Shown here in pieces: positions 4,626-47,021 of a stretch of 47,387 nt of DNA; positions within the stretch are counted from its first letter, which is position 1, and every line of letters starts with the position of its first letter. The stretch is from Litorilinea aerophila (lineage in GTDB: Bacteria; Chloroflexota; Anaerolineae; Caldilineales; Caldilineaceae). Location: assembly GCA_945905745.1 (NCBI GenBank), contig CAMDQF010000008.1, positions 1 through 47,387 of the forward strand, given 5' to 3'. The notes under the pieces are model-generated. The model had not been told where the DNA came from, made no database searches, and was given only the letters and a program-made list of their open reading frames with translations. The position numbers and the translations under genes are program-made.

Positions 4626-7600
4626 TTATCCTCTTTTGACAACACCTACCACGACCATCTCCCCGTCCAGATCGAACTCGACCCGATCCGACGGCAGCTT
4701 TCCGCTTGTCCAGACAGTTTCCACTGCCAGCACCTCTTCCAGTAGATAGCCGCCGTGGGCTTCCAACACGGCCCGCAACAGGGGCGAATCGCCCAGATGC
4801 AGGCGGATGCGGTCGCTGATCTCCAGCCCGGCATCTTTGCGAAGCTGCTGCACCCGGCGCACCACCTCCCGCGCCTGGCCTTCCAGCACCAGTTCCGGGG
4901 TCAGGTCCGTGGTGACGGCCACCAGATAGCCACCATCCTCGGCCACACTGAAGCCGGCCCGGGGCGCGCTGCGCACCTCCACATCCTCCGGCGCGACGGC
5001 GTAGCTGGTCCCGTCCACTTCCACAGTCACCGACTCACCAGCGCCGAAACGCGCGGCCAGATCGCTCTGATCCATCCCTGCCAGGGCCTGGCGGATGACC
5101 GGGAAGCCCCGACCAAATTTCTGGCCCAGTTGTTTGGGCAGAGGATGGACCTGCACATCCACCAGTTCGCTTGCGCCGTCGGCAAAGGCCAGCCCTTTGA
5201 CATTCAATTCCACCAGCAGCGTGTCGGCCATCCGTTCCAGACCGGCCTTCTCTTCGGCGGAGCGGGTGCGTACCACCACCTGGCGCAGAGGCTGACGCAC
5301 TTTCAGGCTGGCATTTTCCCGCGCGGCCCGGCCCAGCGTCGTCACCTTCTGGGCCAGAGCCATATCCGCGCTCAACTGTTCGTCAATGGCGTCGGCGTCC
5401 ACAACCGGCCAGCGGGAGAGATGGACCGAATCCGGAGCGTTTTTGTCCAGACTGGAGACCAGATTTTGATAGAGTTCATCGGCCACAAAGGGCGTGGCCG
5501 GGGCCAGCAGTTGGCTTACCGTCACCAGGCAGTGATGCAGGGTCGCCAGGGCTGCCGGGTCGCCATCCCAGAAGCGGCGACGGTTCAGGCGCACGTACCA
5601 GTTGCTCAGGCTATCCACGAAATCGGCCACAGGCCGGGTCGCGCCCAGTACGTCGTATGTCTCGTAGGCCGCGGTCACATCCTGCACGAGACGATTGAGT
5701 TCGGAGAGAACCCATCTGTCGAGCGGGTTGCGGGTTGCGAATTGCGAATTGCGGGCATCCGCTCCCCAGTCCCCAGTCCCCAGTCTCCAGTCGCTTAAGT
5801 TCGCATCGGTCACAAAGAACCTGTACGTATTCCAGAGCGTATTCAGGAAGCGGCGCACTACTTCGCCCACCAGCGCGTTGCTGAAGCGACGGCTATTGCC
5901 GGGAGGCCCCGCGGTGTACATATACCAGCGGGTGGCGTCTGCGCCGTGCTCTTTGAAGACTGCCCAGGGGTTGACGACATTGCCTTTGGATTTGCTCATC
6001 TTCGAGCCATCTTCGGCCAGGATGTGGCCCAGGCAGATGACATTTTTGAAGGCGGGCCGGTCAAAGAGCAGTGTGCTGACCGCGTGCAGGGTGTAGAACC
6101 AGCCCCGGGTCTGGTCGATGGCCTCGCAGATGAAGTCGGCCTGCTGGTACTTTTCATACTCGGCCTGATTCTCGAAGGGATAGTGCCACTGGGCGATGGG
6201 CATAGAGCCGCTGTCGAACCAGACATCGCAGACTTCGTTGACCCGGCGCATTGTGCCGCCATCGGGCGCGGGCCAGGTCACATTGTCCACGTAGGGACGG
6301 TGCAGTTCGAGCGCGCTCTGATCCACGCCAGTCTTTGCGGAAAGCTCGGCGATGCTGCCCACACATTCGGTGTAGCTGCTGCCCGGCGCGTCGCTCTGCC
6401 AGATGGGCAGGGGGGTAGCCCAGTAGCGATCCCGGCCCATGGCCCAGTCCACATTGTTTTCCAGCCAGCGGCCAAAGCGCCCGTCTTTGATGTGATCGGG
6501 AACCCAGTTGATCTGCTGATTGGTGGCAACGAGACGATCTTTGTAGTCGCTGGTGCGCACATACCAGGTCTCTTTGGCCCAGTAGATCAGGGGCGTGTCG
6601 CAGCGCCAGCAGAAGGGGTAGGTGTGCTCATACGTGCCTGATTTGTAGAGCAGCCCCCGCCCCTTTAGTTCTGCGGTGATGGCCGGGTCGGCCTCCTTCA
6701 CGAAGACACCGGCCCAGGGGGTCACTTCCGGCTTGAACTGGCCGGCCGCGTCCACCGTATGCAGAACAGGCAGGTCATTCTCCTTGCCCACATTCAGATC
6801 GTCCGCGCCAAAGGCCGGCGCGATGTGGACGATGCCTGTGCCATCTTCCGTGCTGACAAAATCGGCGGCGACGACGTAGGCGTACTCTTTGTCCACAGGC
6901 AGAAAGCGGTAGAGGGGTTCATAGCGCTTGCCCACCAGCGATCTGCCCTTCATCTCGGCCAGGACAGAATAGCCGGGGCGCAGCACTTTTTCGGCCAATT
7001 CTTTGGCCAGATAGAGCTTCGCACCGGACTCGTCCAGCACCTGCACGTAGTCCAGTTTTGCACCCACAGCCAGAGCCACGTTGCCGGGCAGGGTCCAGGG
7101 GGTCGTTGTCCACGCCAGGAGGAATGTGTTCTCCTCGCCCCGCACAGCGAATTTGACGAAGACGCTGGGATCGACGGTCCCCTCTTTGTAGCCCAGGGAA
7201 AGCTCGTGGCTGCTCAGGGGCGTGCCACAGCGGGGGCAGTAAGGCACGACTTTGTAGCCCTGATAGAGCAGCCCTTTGTCCCAGAATTGTTTGAGGATCC
7301 ACCAGAGGGACTCTACGTAGTCGGTCTTCATCGTCACGTAGGCGTCTTCCAAGGTCACCCAGAAAGCCATGCGCTCGGTGAGTGCTTCCCAGTCGGTCAG
7401 ATATTCCCAGACCGACTCCTTGCACATTTCGTTGAAAGCGGCCACGCCGTAAGCTTCGATCTGCTCCTTGCCAGTCATGCCCAGCCGCTTCTCCACGTCC
7501 AATTCCACAGGCAGGCCGTGGGTGTCCCAGCCGCCCTTGCGCAGGACGTGGTAGCCCTGCATCGTCTTGTAGCGGGGGAACATATCCTTGAAGGCCCGGG

Positions 7601-9255: not shown

Positions 9256-9433
9256 TGCGTATTCCGTATTGCGTAAGTTCTGGAGATCGAACCGTTTCTT
9301 GTGTCTTACTGGTAGCGATGAGCGGATATTTTCTTGCTGGCACTGCTCCTCTTCGTTACCACCGCCGCTCACCCGTCAATCCGCCAATCGTGACTGCTTA
9401 CGAAATACGCAATACGAAATACGGAGTACGCAG
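9255..9433. repeat. Inverted pair of 7-nt-period repeat (GCGTATT/AATACGC family), about 120 bp apart
   Basis: ATTGCGTATTCCGTATTGCGTAAG at about 9254-9278 and CTTACGAAATACGCAATACGAAATACGG at about 9399-9427. Confidence 0.85.
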
Positions 9434-28123: not shown

Positions 28124-28147
28124 GGATGAGTCCTCCTGCGTACAAGT

Positions 28148-28222
28148 GAGCAGTTATCAGTGGGCAGTAATCAGTTACCAGTGGTGTGAGATGACTCGAC
28201 TGATTACTGATAACTGTTCACT
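28148..28222. repeat. Inverted pair of CAGTTATCAGT/ACTGATAACTG words in the nuoJ-nuoK gap
   Basis: gagcagttatcagtgggcagtaatcagttaccagt ... ctgattactgataactgttcactgc. Confidence 0.85.
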
Positions 28223-28224
28223 GC

Positions 28225-28746
28225 TTAATTATTGTCCCGGGCCAACATCACAGCACCGACCAGGGCCACCAGCAACAACAGACCCATTACCTCAAAGGCG
28301 ATCACATAGTCGGTGACAAACTGCACACCCAAAGCGGCGATCATCGACTCGTCGGCCAGCACTGCCGGAGCGCTGTCTGCCCAGGGGATCGAGCCGACAA
28401 AGCCATAGAGAGCCAGAAAGATCATCACCGCAAAGAGCCCGGTCTTGCCCCATTGCCGGTTCATCGGCGAAGTCTTGCCGTACATCATTGAGCGGGTGAG
28501 CATAATGGCAAAGGTGATGAGGGTGGCAATCGCGCCCACGTAGACCAGCACCTGACTGACGGCCAAAAACTCAGCTTCCAACATCACATAGAGCGCGGCC
28601 ACGCCAAAAAGCGTTGCCACCAGTGCCAGCGCGCCGTGGAATAGATTGCGCGCCAGCACTACACCCAGCGCCGAAGCACAGGTAAAAAAGGCGAAGCCGG
28701 TAAAGACCAGTTGGCCGATAGTCGGTAGGGGAGGCAATGGTGGCAT
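28225..28746 (-). CDS. nuoJ: NADH-quinone oxidoreductase subunit J (operon 1)
   Basis: ALYVMLEAEFLAVSQVLVYVGAIATLITFAIMLTRSMM. Confidence 0.94.
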   Translation of the reverse strand: MPPLPPLPTIGQLVFTGFAFFTCASALGVVLARNLFHGALALVATLFGVAALYVMLEAEFLAVSQVLVYVGAIATLITFAIMLTRSMMYGKTSPMNRQWGKTGLFAVMIFLALYGFVGSIPWADSAPAVLADESMIAALGVQFVTDYVIAFEVMGLLLLVALVGAVMLARDNN

Positions 28747-30700: not shown

Positions 30701-30772
30701 GTAGGTTGGGTTCTTCCGGCGCAACTCATCAAAACAATTCCCTCAGACTTCTGCCGGAAGAACCCAACCTAC
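30701..30772. repeat. 20-bp perfect inverted repeat in the probable 5'UTR of nuo operon 1
   Basis: GTAGGTTGGGTTCTTCCGGC (30701-30720) ... GCCGGAAGAACCCAACCTAC (30753-30772). Confidence 0.92.
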
Positions 30773-32061: not shown

Positions 32062-32140
32062 AGAAGTAATCAGTTATCAGTGATCACTTGGATGTCTCGG
32101 CACTGGTAACTGTTCACTGATTACTGATAACTGTTCACTC
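32062..32140. repeat. Inverted pair of CAGTTATCAGT/ACTGATAACTG words in the nuoB-nuoCD gap
   Basis: gtaatcagttatcagtgatcac ... ctgttcactgattactgataactgttcact. Confidence 0.87.
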
Positions 32141-32158: not shown

Positions 32159-33997
32159 ATGCCATTAAACACCTCCCCCCGCGTCCGCTCCTACGAAACC
32201 CTGCCCAGCCTGAATGTGCCGGGTGTGCCTGCCGTGGCCCCTATGCCCAGCGGCGAAAGCGCCGACACCAGCCGCGTGGCCGAGCGCTTCGGCGGGGATG
32301 TGTTGGCCGCCGGTCTGCACAACGGCAACCAGGTGCTTTACGTCAAGCCGGAGAAGCTGGTGGAGGTCGCCCAATTTCTCAAAAGCGATCCGCAACTGCG
32401 CTACGAATCCCTCATTGACGTGACCGGCCTAGATCGCAAGGAACTGCCCATCGACGCCGGCGCGCCCCGCTTCCAGTCTGTGGCCCAGCTGCGCTCCTAC
32501 AGCCGCAAGCAACACATCACACTGATGGCTGATTGCACGGGGGGTGACAAACCCACCATCCCCAGCCTCACCGCCGCCTATCAGGGCGCGGAGTGGCCAG
32601 AGCGGGAATGCGCCGACTTGATGGGCATCAGCTACACCGGTCACCCGGACCCTCGCCGCATTTTGATGCCCAAGCAATGGCCCAATCATCCCCTGCAAAA
32701 GCAGATTCCTATGGGCGGCGAAGAGGTCCCTTTCACCCTGACCTGGGACGATCCGGAATTTGAGACGCTGGGCACCCAAATTCTCCCCTCCATCAGCCAT
32801 GCCCCCGATATGCCCCCCGGTATGAACCGGGAAAATATGATTATCAATATGGGTCCCCACCACCCCAGCACCCACGGCGTGTTGCGTTTGGTGGTGGAGT
32901 TGGACGGCGAGCGGGTGGTCAGCATCGACCCGGACCTGGGCTATCTGCACAGCGGCTTTGAAAAAACCGGTGAGAGCAAGCGCTACAAAGATTTTGTCTA
33001 CTACACCGACCGGATGGATTACCTCTCCGGGATGAACAACAATTTCGCCTACGTCCTGACTGTGGAGAAGATGCTCGGCGTTGAGATTCCGCAACGGGCA
33101 CAGGTGATCCGGGTGATGATGGGTGAATTGCAGCGTATCGCCTCCCATCTCTTCTGGCTCTCCACCCACGTCCTCGACGTTTCCGGCACGGGGATGTCTC
33201 TGTTGATGTACGCCACCCGGGAGCGGGAACGCATTCTCGACCTCTTCGAGATGGTCTGTGGCGCACGGCTGACCGTCAGCTACATTCGTGTGGGCGGTGT
33301 CTGGGCGGATCTGCCCGAAGCCTTCCTCACCCACTTGCAGGATTTTGTGCGGGTGATGCCCAGCAAAATCGACGACTACGAGCGGATGCTGACTGAGCAG
33401 CGGGTCTGGAAGGACCGTCTGCAAGGCATCGGCGTGCTGAGTCGCGAGCAGGTGTTGGAGATGGGGCTGACTGGACCGATGCTGCGGGGCAGCGGTGTGG
33501 ACTGGGACCTGCGCCGGGATATGCCCTACGGCGGCTATGAGAACTACGATTTCAAAGTGCCGGTGCACAGTGAAGGCGATGGCTACGCCCGCTATCTGGT
33601 GCGCATGGAAGAGATGCGCCAGAGCCTGCGCATCATCGGTCAGGCCATCAAAAACCTGCCCGACGGCCTCTTCAAGACCGACAACCGCAAAGTCACTGCA
33701 CCGCCCAGGGCCGAGCTGGACCTGAGTATGGAATCCCTCATCCATCACTTCAAACTGATGACCGAAGGCTTCCGGGTCAACCCCGGCTTTCTCTACCACG
33801 GCATCGAGGGCAGCAAAGGCGAACTAGGCTTTTATCTCTACAGCGACGGCTCGCCCCGCCCCTATCGCCTGCACATCCACGGGCCAAGTTTTAATAATTT
33901 GTATGCCATCAACACAATGAGCCGCGGTGAAATGTTGTCAGATATTGTGACGAATATTGGGTCGATTGATATTGTGCTGGGGGAAGTGGACAGATAA
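32159..33997 (+). CDS. nuoCD: NADH-quinone oxidoreductase subunit C/D fusion
   Basis: C domain (EWPERECADLMGISYTGHPDPRRILMP) followed by D domain (MGPHHPSTHGVLRLVVELDGE) in one ORF. Confidence 0.95.
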   Translation: MPLNTSPRVRSYETLPSLNVPGVPAVAPMPSGESADTSRVAERFGGDVLAAGLHNGNQVLYVKPEKLVEVAQFLKSDPQLRYESLIDVTGLDRKELPIDAGAPRFQSVAQLRSYSRKQHITLMADCTGGDKPTIPSLTAAYQGAEWPERECADLMGISYTGHPDPRRILMPKQWPNHPLQKQIPMGGEEVPFTLTWDDPEFETLGTQILPSISHAPDMPPGMNRENMIINMGPHHPSTHGVLRLVVELDGERVVSIDPDLGYLHSGFEKTGESKRYKDFVYYTDRMDYLSGMNNNFAYVLTVEKMLGVEIPQRAQVIRVMMGELQRIASHLFWLSTHVLDVSGTGMSLLMYATRERERILDLFEMVCGARLTVSYIRVGGVWADLPEAFLTHLQDFVRVMPSKIDDYERMLTEQRVWKDRLQGIGVLSREQVLEMGLTGPMLRGSGVDWDLRRDMPYGGYENYDFKVPVHSEGDGYARYLVRMEEMRQSLRIIGQAIKNLPDGLFKTDNRKVTAPPRAELDLSMESLIHHFKLMTEGFRVNPGFLYHGIEGSKGELGFYLYSDGSPRPYRLHIHGPSFNNLYAINTMSRGEMLSDIVTNIGSIDIVLGEVDR

Positions 33998-33998
33998 C

Positions 33999-34050
33999 AA
34001 AAGCACACGGATTGGATGGATAGGATAGATTTTCACGGATTATTCTGGAT
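33999..34050. repeat. Left TIR-like CACGGATT-word repeat flanking the GxxExxY gene
   Basis: acacggattggatggataggatagattttcacggattattctgg; matches the reverse complement of 34453-34503. Confidence 0.7.
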
Positions 34051-34070
34051 TTCACAGATGAGGGAATGAT

Positions 34071-34469
34071 GTGAAGCATTCAGCGCTGACCGGCGAAATC
34101 ATTAGTGCCTTTTATAAAGTTTACAATACCCTTGGTTTTGGATTCTTGGAGAAGGTATACGAATCAGCCTTGCTGCTGGAATTGCGGAAACGTGGACTTC
34201 GTGCGGAAAATCGACAGGCACTCATTGTCTTTTACGAAGGAACACCTGTTGGCAAGTATTATGCCGATATTATTGTGGAAGATAAAGTGGTGCTTGAACT
34301 GAAGACCGCAGAGAACATCGATGAAGCACATTTGGCCCAACTGACCAATTACCTTCGTGCAACCGATTGTGAAGTTGGGTTAGTATTGAATTTCGGTCCC
34401 AAACCACAACACAGACGACGGATATTCGACAATCCATTGAAGGGTAGATCGCCAGAAAGATCCGTGTAA
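34071..34469 (+). CDS. GxxExxY family protein (predicted PD-(D/E)XK-like)
   Basis: GFGFLEKVYESALLLELRKRGL, KYYADIIVEDKVVLELKTAENIDEAHLAQLTNYLRAT. Confidence 0.85.
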   Translation: MKHSALTGEIISAFYKVYNTLGFGFLEKVYESALLLELRKRGLRAENRQALIVFYEGTPVGKYYADIIVEDKVVLELKTAENIDEAHLAQLTNYLRATDCEVGLVLNFGPKPQHRRRIFDNPLKGRSPERSV

Positions 34470-34503
34470 ATCCTTTCAATCCGTCTAATCCGTGTTCTTT
34501 TTT
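34453..34503. repeat. Right TIR-like repeat flanking the GxxExxY gene
   Basis: Reverse complement AAAAAAGAACACGGATTAGACGGATTGAAAGGATTTACACGGATCTTTCTGG. Confidence 0.7.
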
Positions 34504-34512
34504 GAGGTTCAT

Positions 34513-36486
34513 ATGCTTACTACTGCAATGCGTGTTGAAATCGACGAAATAATGACCCGCTACCCGGCTGGGCGGCAGCGGTCGGCGGTGTTGCCCGCGC
34601 TCTATGTGATCCAGCGTGAATTCGGCTACTGCCCGGTGGAGGCCCAGAACGAATTGGCCGCCATCTTGGGCATCGCCCCGGTGGAGGTGAGCGCGGTCGT
34701 CGGCTTCTATAATATGTTCCACGAGCAGCCGAAGGGCGAATATCATGTGGAGGTCTGCACGAATGTCCCCTGTATGCTGCGCGGCGGCGGCAAGTGTCTG
34801 CACCACTTTGAGGACGCGCTCAGCATCCACCACGGCCAGCAGACCGCGGACGGTCAGTTCGGCCTGGACCACATGGAATGTCTTGGCTCTTGTGGTACGG
34901 CACCCATGGCAGCGGTCACGGATCAGAAAACCGGTCAGATTCGCTACTTCGAGAATTTGGATTCGCCAGAGGACGTGGCACAGGTCGTAGATCTGCTCAA
35001 AGCGGGCAAGGGCTTCACGACGCTGGAACGCTGGACTCCCGAAGGCGACCCGCAGAAGAGCGGTGCCACCGCCGGCCCTTACAACCACGGCGGGATGGAG
35101 ACCCTCTATCTGCTCTCCCGCGTCAAGACACCCCAGAGCCACACCCTGGCCAGCTACGAGGCCGACGGCGGCTATGCCACGGCCAAACGGGTGCTGAGCG
35201 AAATGCAACCCCAAGCCGTCATCGATCAGGTCAAAGCCAGCGGTATCCGCGGGCGGGGCGGCGCGGGCTTCCCCACCGGCGTCAAGTGGGGCTTTCTGCC
35301 CAAAGGCGTCTTCCCCCGCTATCTGGTGGTCAACGCCGACGAATCCGAGCCGGGCACATTTAAGGATCGGATGCTGATGGAGTACGATCCCCACCAGTTG
35401 TTGGAAGGGATTGTAATGAGCGCCTTCGCCATCGAGGCGGAACAGGCCTATGTTTATATCCGTGGCGAATACTATTTTGCCTGGACCCGAATGCAAGCAG
35501 CCATCGACGAGGCCAGAGCCGCCGGTTATATCGGTGACAACTGCTTTGGCACGGGCAAAAAGCTGGAAGTGGTCCTACACCGGGGAGCGGGCGCGTATGA
35601 GTGCGGTGAGGAGACCGCCCAGCTTTCGTCGTTGGAAGGCTACCGGGGACAGCCCCGGCTCAAACCGCCCTTTCCCGCGGTTGAGGGTCTTTATGCCAAG
35701 CCTACAATCGTCAATAACGTGGAATCGATTTGCAACGTCACCCACGTCATGCGCAACGGGGTGGAGTGGTATCGCAAATTTGGCACAGAGCAGAGCGCTG
35801 GGATGCGTATCTTTTGCCTGAGCGGCAATGTGAAGCGGCCCGGCAACTACGAACTGCCCCACGCCACCACCCTGCGCACACTGATTTACGAATACGGCGG
35901 CGGCCCAGAGTTGGACGACGTGCCCATCAAGGCGATTGTCCCCGGCGGCCTGTCCATGAAGCTGCTGACGCCGAGCCAGATGGATACGCCCCTGGACTAC
36001 GAGAGTGTGGCCGCGGCCGGTTCCCTCCTCGGCTCCGCCGGTGTGATTGTCATCGACGAGCGCTTTTCCATGGTGGAGATCGCCCGGCGCACACTCTCCT
36101 TCTACCGGGAGGAGAGCTGCGGCAAATGCACCCCCTGCCGGGAAGGGGGCGCATGGCTGGAAAAAATTATGATTCGCATCGAAGAGGGTCAGGGCCGGGA
36201 GAAGGACCTGGAACTCCTGGAATATATCGCCCGCAACATCGCCGGCAAGAGTTTCTGTCCCTTTGGTGAAGCGTCGGTCTGGGGGATGCAGAGCAATCTG
36301 GCGAAGTTCCGCCACGAATTTTTGTCCCACATCGAAAAAACCAATCCCAGTTCAATCGGCCCGCAGATTCCCATCCGGCCCATCTACCGGCCCGACACCC
36401 ACCAACCCAGTGGACTGCGCCAGAACGCGCAGAAGTCCCAGGGCGAGCGGATTGTTCTCCACGACGAGTTCGTGCCGGGGGATTGA
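34513..36486 (+). CDS. NADH-quinone oxidoreductase subunit E-F fusion
   Basis: NuoE-like (VCTNVPC...ECLGSCGTAP) continuous with NuoF-like (GIRGRGGAGFPTGVKW, NADESEPGTFKDR, SCGKCTPCREGG, SFCPFGEAS). Confidence 0.93.
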   Translation: MLTTAMRVEIDEIMTRYPAGRQRSAVLPALYVIQREFGYCPVEAQNELAAILGIAPVEVSAVVGFYNMFHEQPKGEYHVEVCTNVPCMLRGGGKCLHHFEDALSIHHGQQTADGQFGLDHMECLGSCGTAPMAAVTDQKTGQIRYFENLDSPEDVAQVVDLLKAGKGFTTLERWTPEGDPQKSGATAGPYNHGGMETLYLLSRVKTPQSHTLASYEADGGYATAKRVLSEMQPQAVIDQVKASGIRGRGGAGFPTGVKWGFLPKGVFPRYLVVNADESEPGTFKDRMLMEYDPHQLLEGIVMSAFAIEAEQAYVYIRGEYYFAWTRMQAAIDEARAAGYIGDNCFGTGKKLEVVLHRGAGAYECGEETAQLSSLEGYRGQPRLKPPFPAVEGLYAKPTIVNNVESICNVTHVMRNGVEWYRKFGTEQSAGMRIFCLSGNVKRPGNYELPHATTLRTLIYEYGGGPELDDVPIKAIVPGGLSMKLLTPSQMDTPLDYESVAAAGSLLGSAGVIVIDERFSMVEIARRTLSFYREESCGKCTPCREGGAWLEKIMIRIEEGQGREKDLELLEYIARNIAGKSFCPFGEASVWGMQSNLAKFRHEFLSHIEKTNPSSIGPQIPIRPIYRPDTHQPSGLRQNAQKSQGERIVLHDEFVPGD

Positions 36487-36571: not shown

Positions 36572-37243
36572 GTGAGCGTAGCAGTCAAGCAATCAAAGCT
36601 GAATAGCGGTTATGATCTATCGTTTGTCATACCGCCGCGCATGCCTGTACGCCGTTTTTCATTAGAAGAGTATCATCAGTTGATCGAAATCGGCTTCTTT
36701 CGAGACGACGAGCGTATCGAACTGATCGAAGGGATTCTAGTACCAATGCCTCCGATGTCTTCCCGACAGGCAGCTTGTATTCGCAAGCTACAAAACCGTT
36801 TCACTATTGATTTGCGCGAGCGGGCAGTAGTCAGTGTTCAATTGCCGTTGACAATTACTAGACGAACTTCTGAGCCTGAACCGGATATTACGTTGTTGAA
36901 GCCCGAACCGAGCAATTATTCTCAACGACATCCTCGACCTACGGATGTCCTGCTGGCGTTAGAGGTCTCGTACACAACGTTAGGGTATGACGACGGAGAC
37001 AAGCGTCATCTCTATGCCCGGGCTGGCATCCAGGAGTATTGGATCGTCAACCTGAATGATGATTCGGTCATTGTTTACCGAAAACCATCTGCACTGAATC
37101 AAGATGACGCCGACTTTGAGTCCAAGCAGACTTTCCGATCCGGAGATCGCCTGACGCCTTTAGCATTTCCGGACTATTCACTCGATGTCAGCGAGATTCT
37201 TCCAACATTTGGCGAATCTGGGTTTTCCCCTGTTTCGGTTTGA
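36572..37243 (+). CDS. Uma2 family (DUF820) endonuclease-like protein
   Basis: RRFSLEEYHQLIEIGFFRDDERIELIEGILVPMPP, EPDITLLKPE, DVLLALEVSYTTLGYDDGDKRHLYARAGIQEYWIVNL. Confidence 0.92.
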   Translation: MSVAVKQSKLNSGYDLSFVIPPRMPVRRFSLEEYHQLIEIGFFRDDERIELIEGILVPMPPMSSRQAACIRKLQNRFTIDLRERAVVSVQLPLTITRRTSEPEPDITLLKPEPSNYSQRHPRPTDVLLALEVSYTTLGYDDGDKRHLYARAGIQEYWIVNLNDDSVIVYRKPSALNQDDADFESKQTFRSGDRLTPLAFPDYSLDVSEILPTFGESGFSPVSV

Positions 37244-37356
37244 ATCCGTGAATATCTTGACTATCCATCCTGTTCGTGTTGTTTCGATTTTGTTCTAATC
37301 CGCGGGAATCCGCCCGATCCGCTAAACCGCGTTCTATTCTTTAGGAACGAACTTTA

Positions 37357-42594: not shown

Positions 42595-42893
42595 TTCCGA
42601 CCAGCTATTATCTGATTTTGGCTGCCCTGATCTTCGCCGTGGGCGCAACCGGTGTGATGGTGCGTCGCAATGCGGTGATTATCTTTATGTGCGTGGAGAT
42701 GATGCTCAACAGCGTCAACCTGACCCTCATCGCCCTCAGCCGCCAGTGGGGCAACCTGAACGGCCAGGTCTTTGTCTTTATGATTATGGCCGTAGCCGCC
42801 GCCGAAGTGGCCGTGGGGCTGGCGATTCTGATTGCCAACACCCGGCATCGGAAGAGTATTAATATTGACGAGATTAATTTGTTGAAGTGGTGA
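42591..42893 (+). CDS. nuoK: NADH-quinone oxidoreductase subunit K (operon 2)
   Basis: GATGVMVRRNAVIIFMCVEMMLNSVNLTLIAL; overlaps nuoJ by ATGA. Confidence 0.95.
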   Translation: MIPTSYYLILAALIFAVGATGVMVRRNAVIIFMCVEMMLNSVNLTLIALSRQWGNLNGQVFVFMIMAVAAAEVAVGLAILIANTRHRKSINIDEINLLKW

Positions 42894-42962
42894 TTGGGGA
42901 TTAGGGACTGGGGATTGGAGACTGGGAAGACGCCCAGTCCCCAGTCCCCAGTCCCCAATCCC
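42894..42962. repeat. Inverted pair of GGGGACT/AGTCCCC words in the nuoK-nuoL gap
   Basis: ggggattagggactggggattggagactggg ... cccagtccccagtccccagtccccaatccc. Confidence 0.9.
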
Positions 42963-45365: not shown

Positions 45366-46847
45366 ATGAACTTCCTACTTTCGCTTATCACATTTCTCCC
45401 CCTCGTCGGCGCGCTGATTCTATTGGCCGTGTCCGGAGACGGGGCCAAAAAGAGCATTGCCCTGGGCACAACCCTCGTCACCTTTCTGGTCAGCCTGTTG
45501 CTGCTGATGAACTGGCCGGAGGGCGCAGCAGGGATGGTGCTGGAGGAGAAGTACGCCTGGATCCCCGATCTGGACATCTTCTACCACCTGGGCGTGGACG
45601 GTATCAGCCTCTGGTTGGTGCTGCTGACGACTTTCCTTATGCCCATTGCCGTGGCCTTCAGCAATCAGCACATCAAAGAGAATGTGGGCGGCTATATGGC
45701 CCTGATGCTGCTGATGCAGACGGCGATGATTGGCGTCTTCCTTTCCTTGGATTTGGTGCTCTTTTATGTCTTCTGGGAGTTCAGCCTCATCCCGATGTAC
45801 TTCCTCATCGGCAAGTGGGGCGGCCAGAACCGGGTCTACGCGGCGCTTAAGTTTTTCCTCTACACCCTGGCCGGCTCGGCGCTGATGCTGGTGGCGATTC
45901 TGCTGGTCTACTTCAACACCGGCACCTTCAATGTATTGGAACTGCAAAATGCCAACCTGCCGGTGACGATCCAGCAGTTTGCTTTCCTGGCCTTTGCCCT
46001 GGGCTTTGCCATCAAAGTGCCACTCTTCCCCTTGCACACCTGGCTGCCCGACGCCCACGTCCAGGCCCCCACGGCTGGTTCGGTCATTCTGGCCGGTGTG
46101 CTGCTGAAGATGGGAACCTATGGATTTGTGCGCTTCGCCCTGCCCATCTTCCCAGAGGCGGCAGTGGGCTACGGCGGTCTCTTTGCCTGGCTGGCGATTG
46201 TCGGCATCCTCTACGGCGCGCTGGTTTCGCTGGTGCAAAAGGATATCAAATCCCTGGTCGCCTACGGTTCCGTGGCCCACTTGGGCTTTGTGATGCTGGG
46301 CATCTTCGCCTTCAACCAACAGGGGATGAGCGGCGCGGTGCTACAAATGGTCAACCACGGGTTGAGCACGGGGGCGCTCTTTTTGATGGTGGGTATGCTC
46401 TACGAACGCCGCCACACCCGGCTGCTCAGCGAATTTGGCGGCCTGTGGAAGAGCATTCCGGTCTTCTGCTTCTTCTTTCTGGTGGTGGCCATGAGCAGCG
46501 CAGGGTTGCCCGGTCTCAACGGTTTCGTGGGCGAGTTCACAATTCTGCTGGGGGCCTATGCTCACAACCCGCTCTACGCGGTGCTGGGCACAGCCGGGAT
46601 TATTCTGGCCGCCTGGTATCTGCTGATCGCCTTCCGCAAAATAGCTCAGGGGCCGTTGACCAACCCGAAGAACGAAGCTGGCGTGCTCCCCGACCTGAAC
46701 CGCCGGGAATTGGTCCTGCTAATTCCGCTGGTCGTGCTCTTCTTTGTCATCGGTCTCTTCCCCAATCTCTTCCTCGACAAGATCAACCCGGCGGTGGAAG
46801 CGATGCAGGTGTTACAGGCGAATGTGCCAGCAGTTGTACAGAAATGA
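45366..46847 (+). CDS. nuoM: NADH-quinone oxidoreductase subunit M (operon 2)
   Basis: VLFYVFWEFSLIPMYFLIGKWGG, LHTWLPDAHVQAPTAGSVILAGVLLKMGTYG. Confidence 0.95.
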   Translation: MNFLLSLITFLPLVGALILLAVSGDGAKKSIALGTTLVTFLVSLLLLMNWPEGAAGMVLEEKYAWIPDLDIFYHLGVDGISLWLVLLTTFLMPIAVAFSNQHIKENVGGYMALMLLMQTAMIGVFLSLDLVLFYVFWEFSLIPMYFLIGKWGGQNRVYAALKFFLYTLAGSALMLVAILLVYFNTGTFNVLELQNANLPVTIQQFAFLAFALGFAIKVPLFPLHTWLPDAHVQAPTAGSVILAGVLLKMGTYGFVRFALPIFPEAAVGYGGLFAWLAIVGILYGALVSLVQKDIKSLVAYGSVAHLGFVMLGIFAFNQQGMSGAVLQMVNHGLSTGALFLMVGMLYERRHTRLLSEFGGLWKSIPVFCFFFLVVAMSSAGLPGLNGFVGEFTILLGAYAHNPLYAVLGTAGIILAAWYLLIAFRKIAQGPLTNPKNEAGVLPDLNRRELVLLIPLVVLFFVIGLFPNLFLDKINPAVEAMQVLQANVPAVVQK

Positions 46848-46849
46848 TA

Positions 46850-47003
46850 CGTATTGCGTATTTCGTATTGCGTAGGTAGTCACGAATCAGATTCATTGAA
46901 ACTGATTCGTACTGTGACGATAGTGAAGTCTGCTTTCCACACTTCGCCTTCGACAGCAAAAACCAGTCAATCGCCACTTCTTACGAAATACGCGATACGC
47001 AAC
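46850..47003. repeat. Inverted pair of GCGTATT/AATACGC words in the nuoM-nuoN gap
   Basis: cgtattgcgtatttcgtattgcgtag (about 46852-46877) and cttacgaaatacgcgatacgc (46980-47000); internal hairpin ACGAATCAG...CTGATTCGT. Confidence 0.86.
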
Positions 47004-47021
47004 ACTCCCTTCGGAGCACGA

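Follow-up and report, generated by a model that had tools for sequence, protein, structure and literature searches.

Dispersed intergenic repeats of short words have been described as heptamers, namely GGGAATC in Xanthomonas and GGGGA(C/T)T in Nostoc (PMC4692102) and TAACTGA in Beggiatoaceae (PMC4679880). In the parts of these papers that deal with the repeats, the Xanthomonas words often form inverted pairs and the cause of the spread is given as unknown; the author of PMC4679880 explicitly asks what protein binds the repeats. In REPIN/RAYT (PMC3116915), inverted-repeat hairpins lie between genes, a low-copy gene stands beside its cognate repeats, the repeat types match the gene clades, and gene-less copies dominate. 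The intervening sequences (IVSs) of the 23S rRNA in Coxiella and Leptospira (PMC4990558) are sporadically distributed elements of about 430-500 bp, in which a small ORF, S23p, lies between complementary ends that form a long predicted RNA stem. MITEs, finally, are short non-autonomous inverted repeats. The GxxExxY locus described here and its dispersed words and gene-less hairpins resemble each of these systems in the traits just listed.

The window, that is, the whole stretch of 47,387 nucleotides that was analysed, is contig C8 in a draft assembly of 6.4 Mb, probably from a member of the Chloroflexota, judging by the relatives that have names. Inverted repeats around a GxxExxY gene in its nuo operon had been proposed from the sequence alone, and a repeat search of the window confirmed them as two 50-nt arms, 80% complementary and 403 nt apart (Table 1). 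Their local-alignment score of 30 exceeded all nulls (best of 5000 random same-geometry pairs from the window, 25, with a 99.9th percentile of 17; best of 5000 shuffles, 15). The arms enclose an intact ORF with a GTG start, whose last codons and stop (34452-34469) fall within the right arm, and the cassette is co-directional inside the operon, between nuoCD and nuoEF and outside rRNA (not in 23S helix 9, 25 or 45). Folded as RNA, it reached z = -5.1 with the arms paired over nearly their full length, and a search against Rfam returned no match above the gathering cut-off, the best being a chance match outside the cassette. The arm words are degenerate 7-8-nt strings, here CRCRGATT, spaced 8-10 nt. 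The exact word CACGGATT is mildly enriched in the window (5 copies vs 1.8 expected), and the source genome holds 32 double-word CACGGATT sites and none of the reversed control pattern.

Table 1. Features of the cassette and of the host genes on either side (window positions).
Feature	Position	Strand	Description
nuoCD	32159..33997	+	host gene upstream of the insertion
Left arm	33999..34048	+	words CACGGATT-GGATGGAT-AGGATAGATT-TTCACGGATT; begins directly 3' of the nuoCD stop; repeat search
Extra inner degenerate word beside the left arm	34053..34062	+	CACAGAT; read off the sequence
GxxExxY gene	34071..34469	+	132-aa PD-(D/E)XK nuclease (predicted); catalytic E27, D66, E76, K78, Q90 present
Right arm	34452..34501	-	reverse complement AACACGGATTAGACGGATTGAAAGGATTTACACGGATC; overlaps the 3' codons and stop of the gene; repeat search
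nuoEF	34513..36486	+	host gene downstream of the insertion

Other repeats were noted in the same window. Within 36572-37340, a Uma2 gene is also inserted in the nuo operon; at its 3' end it reaches into an CACGGATT arm present on that side only (37243-37284), beyond which comes a ACGCGGATT-type arm (about 37297-37340), and it has no matching left arm. Further word hairpins of a 7-nt-like period, several of them inverted pairs, stand between nuo genes and elsewhere (28144-28230, 32095-32139, 42888-42962, 5763-5792, 9382-9426 and 46843-47005; words ACTGATTACTGATA, CCCAGTC and TACGAAATACGCAA). A tandem array of about 8 copies of a 99-bp unit (40-831) is probably part of a repeat protein, and a 27-bp near-perfect hairpin, GTAGGTTGGGTTCTTCCGGCGCAACTC, occupies 30701-30772 near a nuoA-like gene.

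Profile searches assigned the ORF to TIGR04256 (E=5e-38, 130.1 bits vs a cut-off of 35) and to PF13366 PDDEXK_3 (E=2.4e-39, 134.8 bits vs a cut-off of 22); they found no transposase or integrase domain in it, only PDDEXK_3/GxxExxY. The active site is intact: G24, E27, Y30, D66, E76, K78 and Q90, nearly invariant in the family, are all present. The structure model of the protein (pLDDT 90, pTM 0.83) came closest to Cas4 SSO0001, lambda exonuclease and the archaeal Holliday-junction resolvase Hjc, although the TM-scores were modest (0.4-0.6); RNA-splicing endonucleases ranked lower. Catalytic residues are kept in 127-130 of 130 proteins, and orthologous, vertically inherited pairs are under purifying selection (dN/dS 0.02-0.08, some dS being near saturation), which indicates that the gene is retained for an enzymatic function, putatively that of a nuclease. 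Tandem double-GxxExxY ORFs of 270-300 aa were also seen (L004 on G000:C142, L107, L109, L111, L112 and L113); in the sequences read, their second domain seemingly lacks the E-x-K active-site motif.

We searched GxxExxY and nuoEF in 31 genomes and read the nuoCD-nuoEF junction in 14. The gene occupies it in five genomes of the same genus (G000, G001, G002, G005 and G006) and in G017, is frameshifted in G010, is reduced to a fragment in G015 and is absent in G007, G008, G013, G014 and G016. The empty-site comparison suggested with the initial reading was informative, as the congener G004 lacks the insertion: its nuoCD stop is followed by ATC and then by the nuoEF ATG. Across these 14 junctions, every intact copy is enclosed by inverted arms, so that relatives keeping the gene here without flanking repeats, which would have spoken against a cassette, were not found; arms are weak in G010, where they are decayed and ACGCGGAT-like, and around the remnant in G015. 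Intact copies have arms of two types, CACGGATT in G000, G002 and G017 and GAATAGAACGCGGATGACGCGGATT in G001, G005 and G006. Among the latter three, GxxExxY is 89-98% identical and nuoEF 91-96%. Between groups and within the CACGGATT type, GxxExxY identity is only 55% (G000-G001), 64% (G002-G001) and 65% (G000-G002), at nuoEF identities of about 90-96%; this discrepancy shows that, within one genus, this junction has at least three times received or exchanged the gene together with its arms. At least three unrelated cassettes with two types of arm word are thus found there, and the AU test on the protein tree gave p=0.31 for the nuo-junction copies as one clade. Compensatory evolution of the arms between the G000/G002 and G001/G005/G006 words was considered and rejected, as the genes are xenologous by the same identities; the outer arm is conserved among true orthologues at the junction. 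The empty junction in G004 and the exchange of whole cassettes in the genus support the claim that a small inverted-repeat-bounded cassette landed between nuoCD and nuoEF.

A second GxxExxY locus (L002, C29 slot) is likewise empty in three congeners (G001, G004 and G006, with 8-24 bp between the genes), and in a fourth the slot holds a word hairpin without the gene. No obvious target-site duplication was seen at the nuo junction (G004) or at the C29 slot (G001, G004, G006), where the flanks have diverged. Hairpins with the same arms but no gene are dispersed over intergenic slots and far outnumber the gene-carrying ones; they include inverted doublets able to form hairpins, seen as paired + and - matches (L008/L009, L030). 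In congeners, the slots of gene-less CACGGATT hairpins often hold another word hairpin (ACGGCGGACGGCAGACG, AATCTCCCAATCTCC, AACCACAAAGACACAAAGG or CAATCAACCAGTGAACC) or nothing, which indicates that hairpins spread and are replaced fast relative to species divergence. One intergenic slot can carry unrelated hairpins across congeneric species (L008, L030, L019 and L027, with orthologous loci L298-L312), as if the hairpins in such a slot replaced each other. At two loci of G002 (L295, L309), an inverted repeat, GAGCCTGTTTAATAATTCAGGC, encloses word hairpins and may represent a further repeat family.

At the other four GxxExxY loci of the source genome, the words on the two sides belong to one family that is particular to the locus: CCACGAATTGCACGAATT at L001, AACGCAGAGGCGCAGGG at L002, GCGAAGNCGCGAAGG in direct orientation at L005, and CGAATGGGAGGAG at L004, whose ORF has two GxxExxY domains. 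The two flanks of each gene were aligned locally against each other, at a threshold of 18 throughout, controls included. With this threshold, which was chosen once the first alignments had been seen, flanks matched in inverted orientation at 46 of 61 loci in relatives, and in inverted or direct orientation at 50 (82%), leaving 11 without matching arms. Among controls, matches were found in 8.5% of cross-pairings between different loci, 1/24 Uma2 genes and 3/30 GNAT acetyltransferases (4-13% in control genes overall). Across many phyla and archaea, 50 of 74 usable loci collected via the protein motif had inverted arms (68%, vs 4% for neighbouring ORFs on the same contigs); cross-pairing was high in this set (21%) because one word class, CRCRRAG, as in ACCACAGAGACACAGAGACACAGAG, is used throughout the subfamily. 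Of the GxxExxY flanks, 75% in relatives and 99% in the phyla set contain three or more CRCRRA[GT] words, vs 17-20% of controls. The idea that other copies would have the same flanks therefore holds for the presence of matching arms, which most copies have, but not for the words, which usually differ from CACGGATT; copies without matching arms, which would also have spoken against a cassette, are the minority. Similarly, the sequence-only reading that word repeats can carry genes stands for GxxExxY, to which the arms are tied, but not for genes generally, since the Uma2 and acetyltransferase genes of the source genome are unflanked. Uma2, also a PD-(D/E)XK protein, was rejected as another cargo on the count given above. 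A phage or plasmid vehicle was also discarded, as a query with one subfamily matched 7 plasmid records and none from phages.

Word type tracks the GxxExxY protein subfamily. With loci labelled by word ending, G or T, the label requires 9 changes on a tree of 130 proteins vs 31.7 when shuffled; for the relatives only, the class G label requires 6 vs 18.1, and 0 of 500 shuffles were as low. Words of the CRCRRAG class point inward on both sides, 542 toward the gene and 192 away. Word abundance, counted per genome with a three-word pattern allowing one mismatch (chosen, like the flank threshold, after a first inspection; the reversed pattern being near zero), is associated with gene presence. When 100 genomes of the phylum were sampled independently, at least nine word sites were found in 19 of 22 genomes with the gene (median 51.5) vs 5 of 78 without it (median 1; Fisher p=4e-13), and in 12 of 14 vs 2 of 60 after collapsing by genus (p=3.6e-10). 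The 31 relatives agree (more word sites with the gene; genus-collapsed Mann-Whitney p=0.003). Most of the compared genomes are drafts and related genomes are non-independent, though the genus-collapsed tests still hold. Five word-rich genomes have no GxxExxY match, three of them being only 73-84% complete; three gene-bearing genomes have few sites of the tested pattern, two with arms of other words (G075, G053) and one (G123) without word arms.

A second gene family shows an analogous architecture with different words. S23p four-helix-bundle genes (TIGR02436), known as the ORF of 23S rRNA IVSs (PMC4990558), also occur outside rRNA in the analysed genomes, and there inverted words flank 27 of 31 loci (cross-pairing 12%). 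These words, GGGGATTGGGGATTGGGGACT, GTGAATTGTGAATTG and TCAATTGTTGATTG among others (L125-L131, L267-L293), recur at exactly 7 nt in 71% of loci; no GxxExxY words were found around the S23p genes. Thus, 7-nt words accompany S23p and not GxxExxY, whose words recur at 8-10 nt.

Altogether, these results suggest that GxxExxY is the engine that spreads word hairpins across genomes, a view whose novelty we judged against the open-access literature. We favour, with a probability of about 0.6, a REPIN/RAYT-like mobile unit without a transposase, in which recognition of the cognate hairpin by the predicted nuclease would drive the spread of gene-less copies. The protein would recognise its own word class, or the hairpin or cruciform formed by the arms, and would cut there; repair or copying might then place hairpins in intergenic slots or swap them, the protein acting in trans on gene-less copies as RAYTs are thought to act on REPINs. 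We infer the binding or cutting of the arms, action on DNA rather than RNA, and the causal direction; that the words are driven by the gene is more than a correlation can prove. The main rival, which we consider unlikely, is an IVS-like RNA element, whose arms would form an RNA stem cut from the nuo transcript by RNase III, so that the insertion is tolerated; the protein's service to the element would then be at the RNA level. The stable RNA fold with paired arms, the co-directional position inside an operon and the same architecture in S23p genes outside rRNA are in keeping with it, but the arms pair equally well as DNA, the top fold relatives are DNA enzymes, many gene-less hairpins lie between genes, and an RNA element alone leaves the spread unexplained.

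That large excess of gene-less hairpins would also fit a separate enzyme that moves hairpins and catches genes by chance, in composite-transposon fashion, with GxxExxY, which might be a selfish nuclease or one used in defence, as a mere passenger among others. This is less probable again: word arms do not flank Uma2, GNAT or neighbouring ORFs, word class tracks the GxxExxY subfamily, abundance follows gene presence, and 7-nt words go with S23p instead. Least credible of all, and largely refuted by the xenologous exchange of gene with arms and by the empty sites, is that the hairpins are host-regulatory terminators or RNA stabilisers beside an ordinary gene and no mobile unit exists. Their intergenic position, also between operon genes, agrees with such a role, yet matching arms are specific to the GxxExxY family and the word family found in a given slot differs between congeners.

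GxxExxY proteins are annotated without function in very many bacteria and archaea and are seldom named in the open-access literature; once every word class has a gene family as its partner, the puzzle of repeat spread becomes a directly testable question. Compared with REPIN/RAYT, the REPIN-like unit we favour differs in that its gene encodes a PD-(D/E)XK nuclease and not a Y1/HUH transposase and lies between the arms, which are strings of degenerate 7-8-nt words in many word families, across archaea and many phyla. Unlike MITEs, its gene-less hairpins have no parent transposase or visible target-site duplication, and their arms are not conserved end to end. The published heptamers, in contrast, are 7-nt head-to-tail units for which the relevant parts of the two papers give no partner gene. 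The cassette also departs from 23S rRNA IVSs, as it is not in rRNA, its ORF is a nuclease and not S23p, and its word-repeat arms have dispersed copies. More tentatively, and with somewhat less than even odds, prokaryotic word hairpins may constitute a mobile-DNA class of their own, with dedicated small proteins other than transposases as its drivers, GxxExxY for words spaced 8-10 nt and S23p for 7-nt words; the unexplained intervening sequences of 23S rRNA, with their S23p ORF, would find a place in this framework as the particular case in which the insertion was into rRNA.
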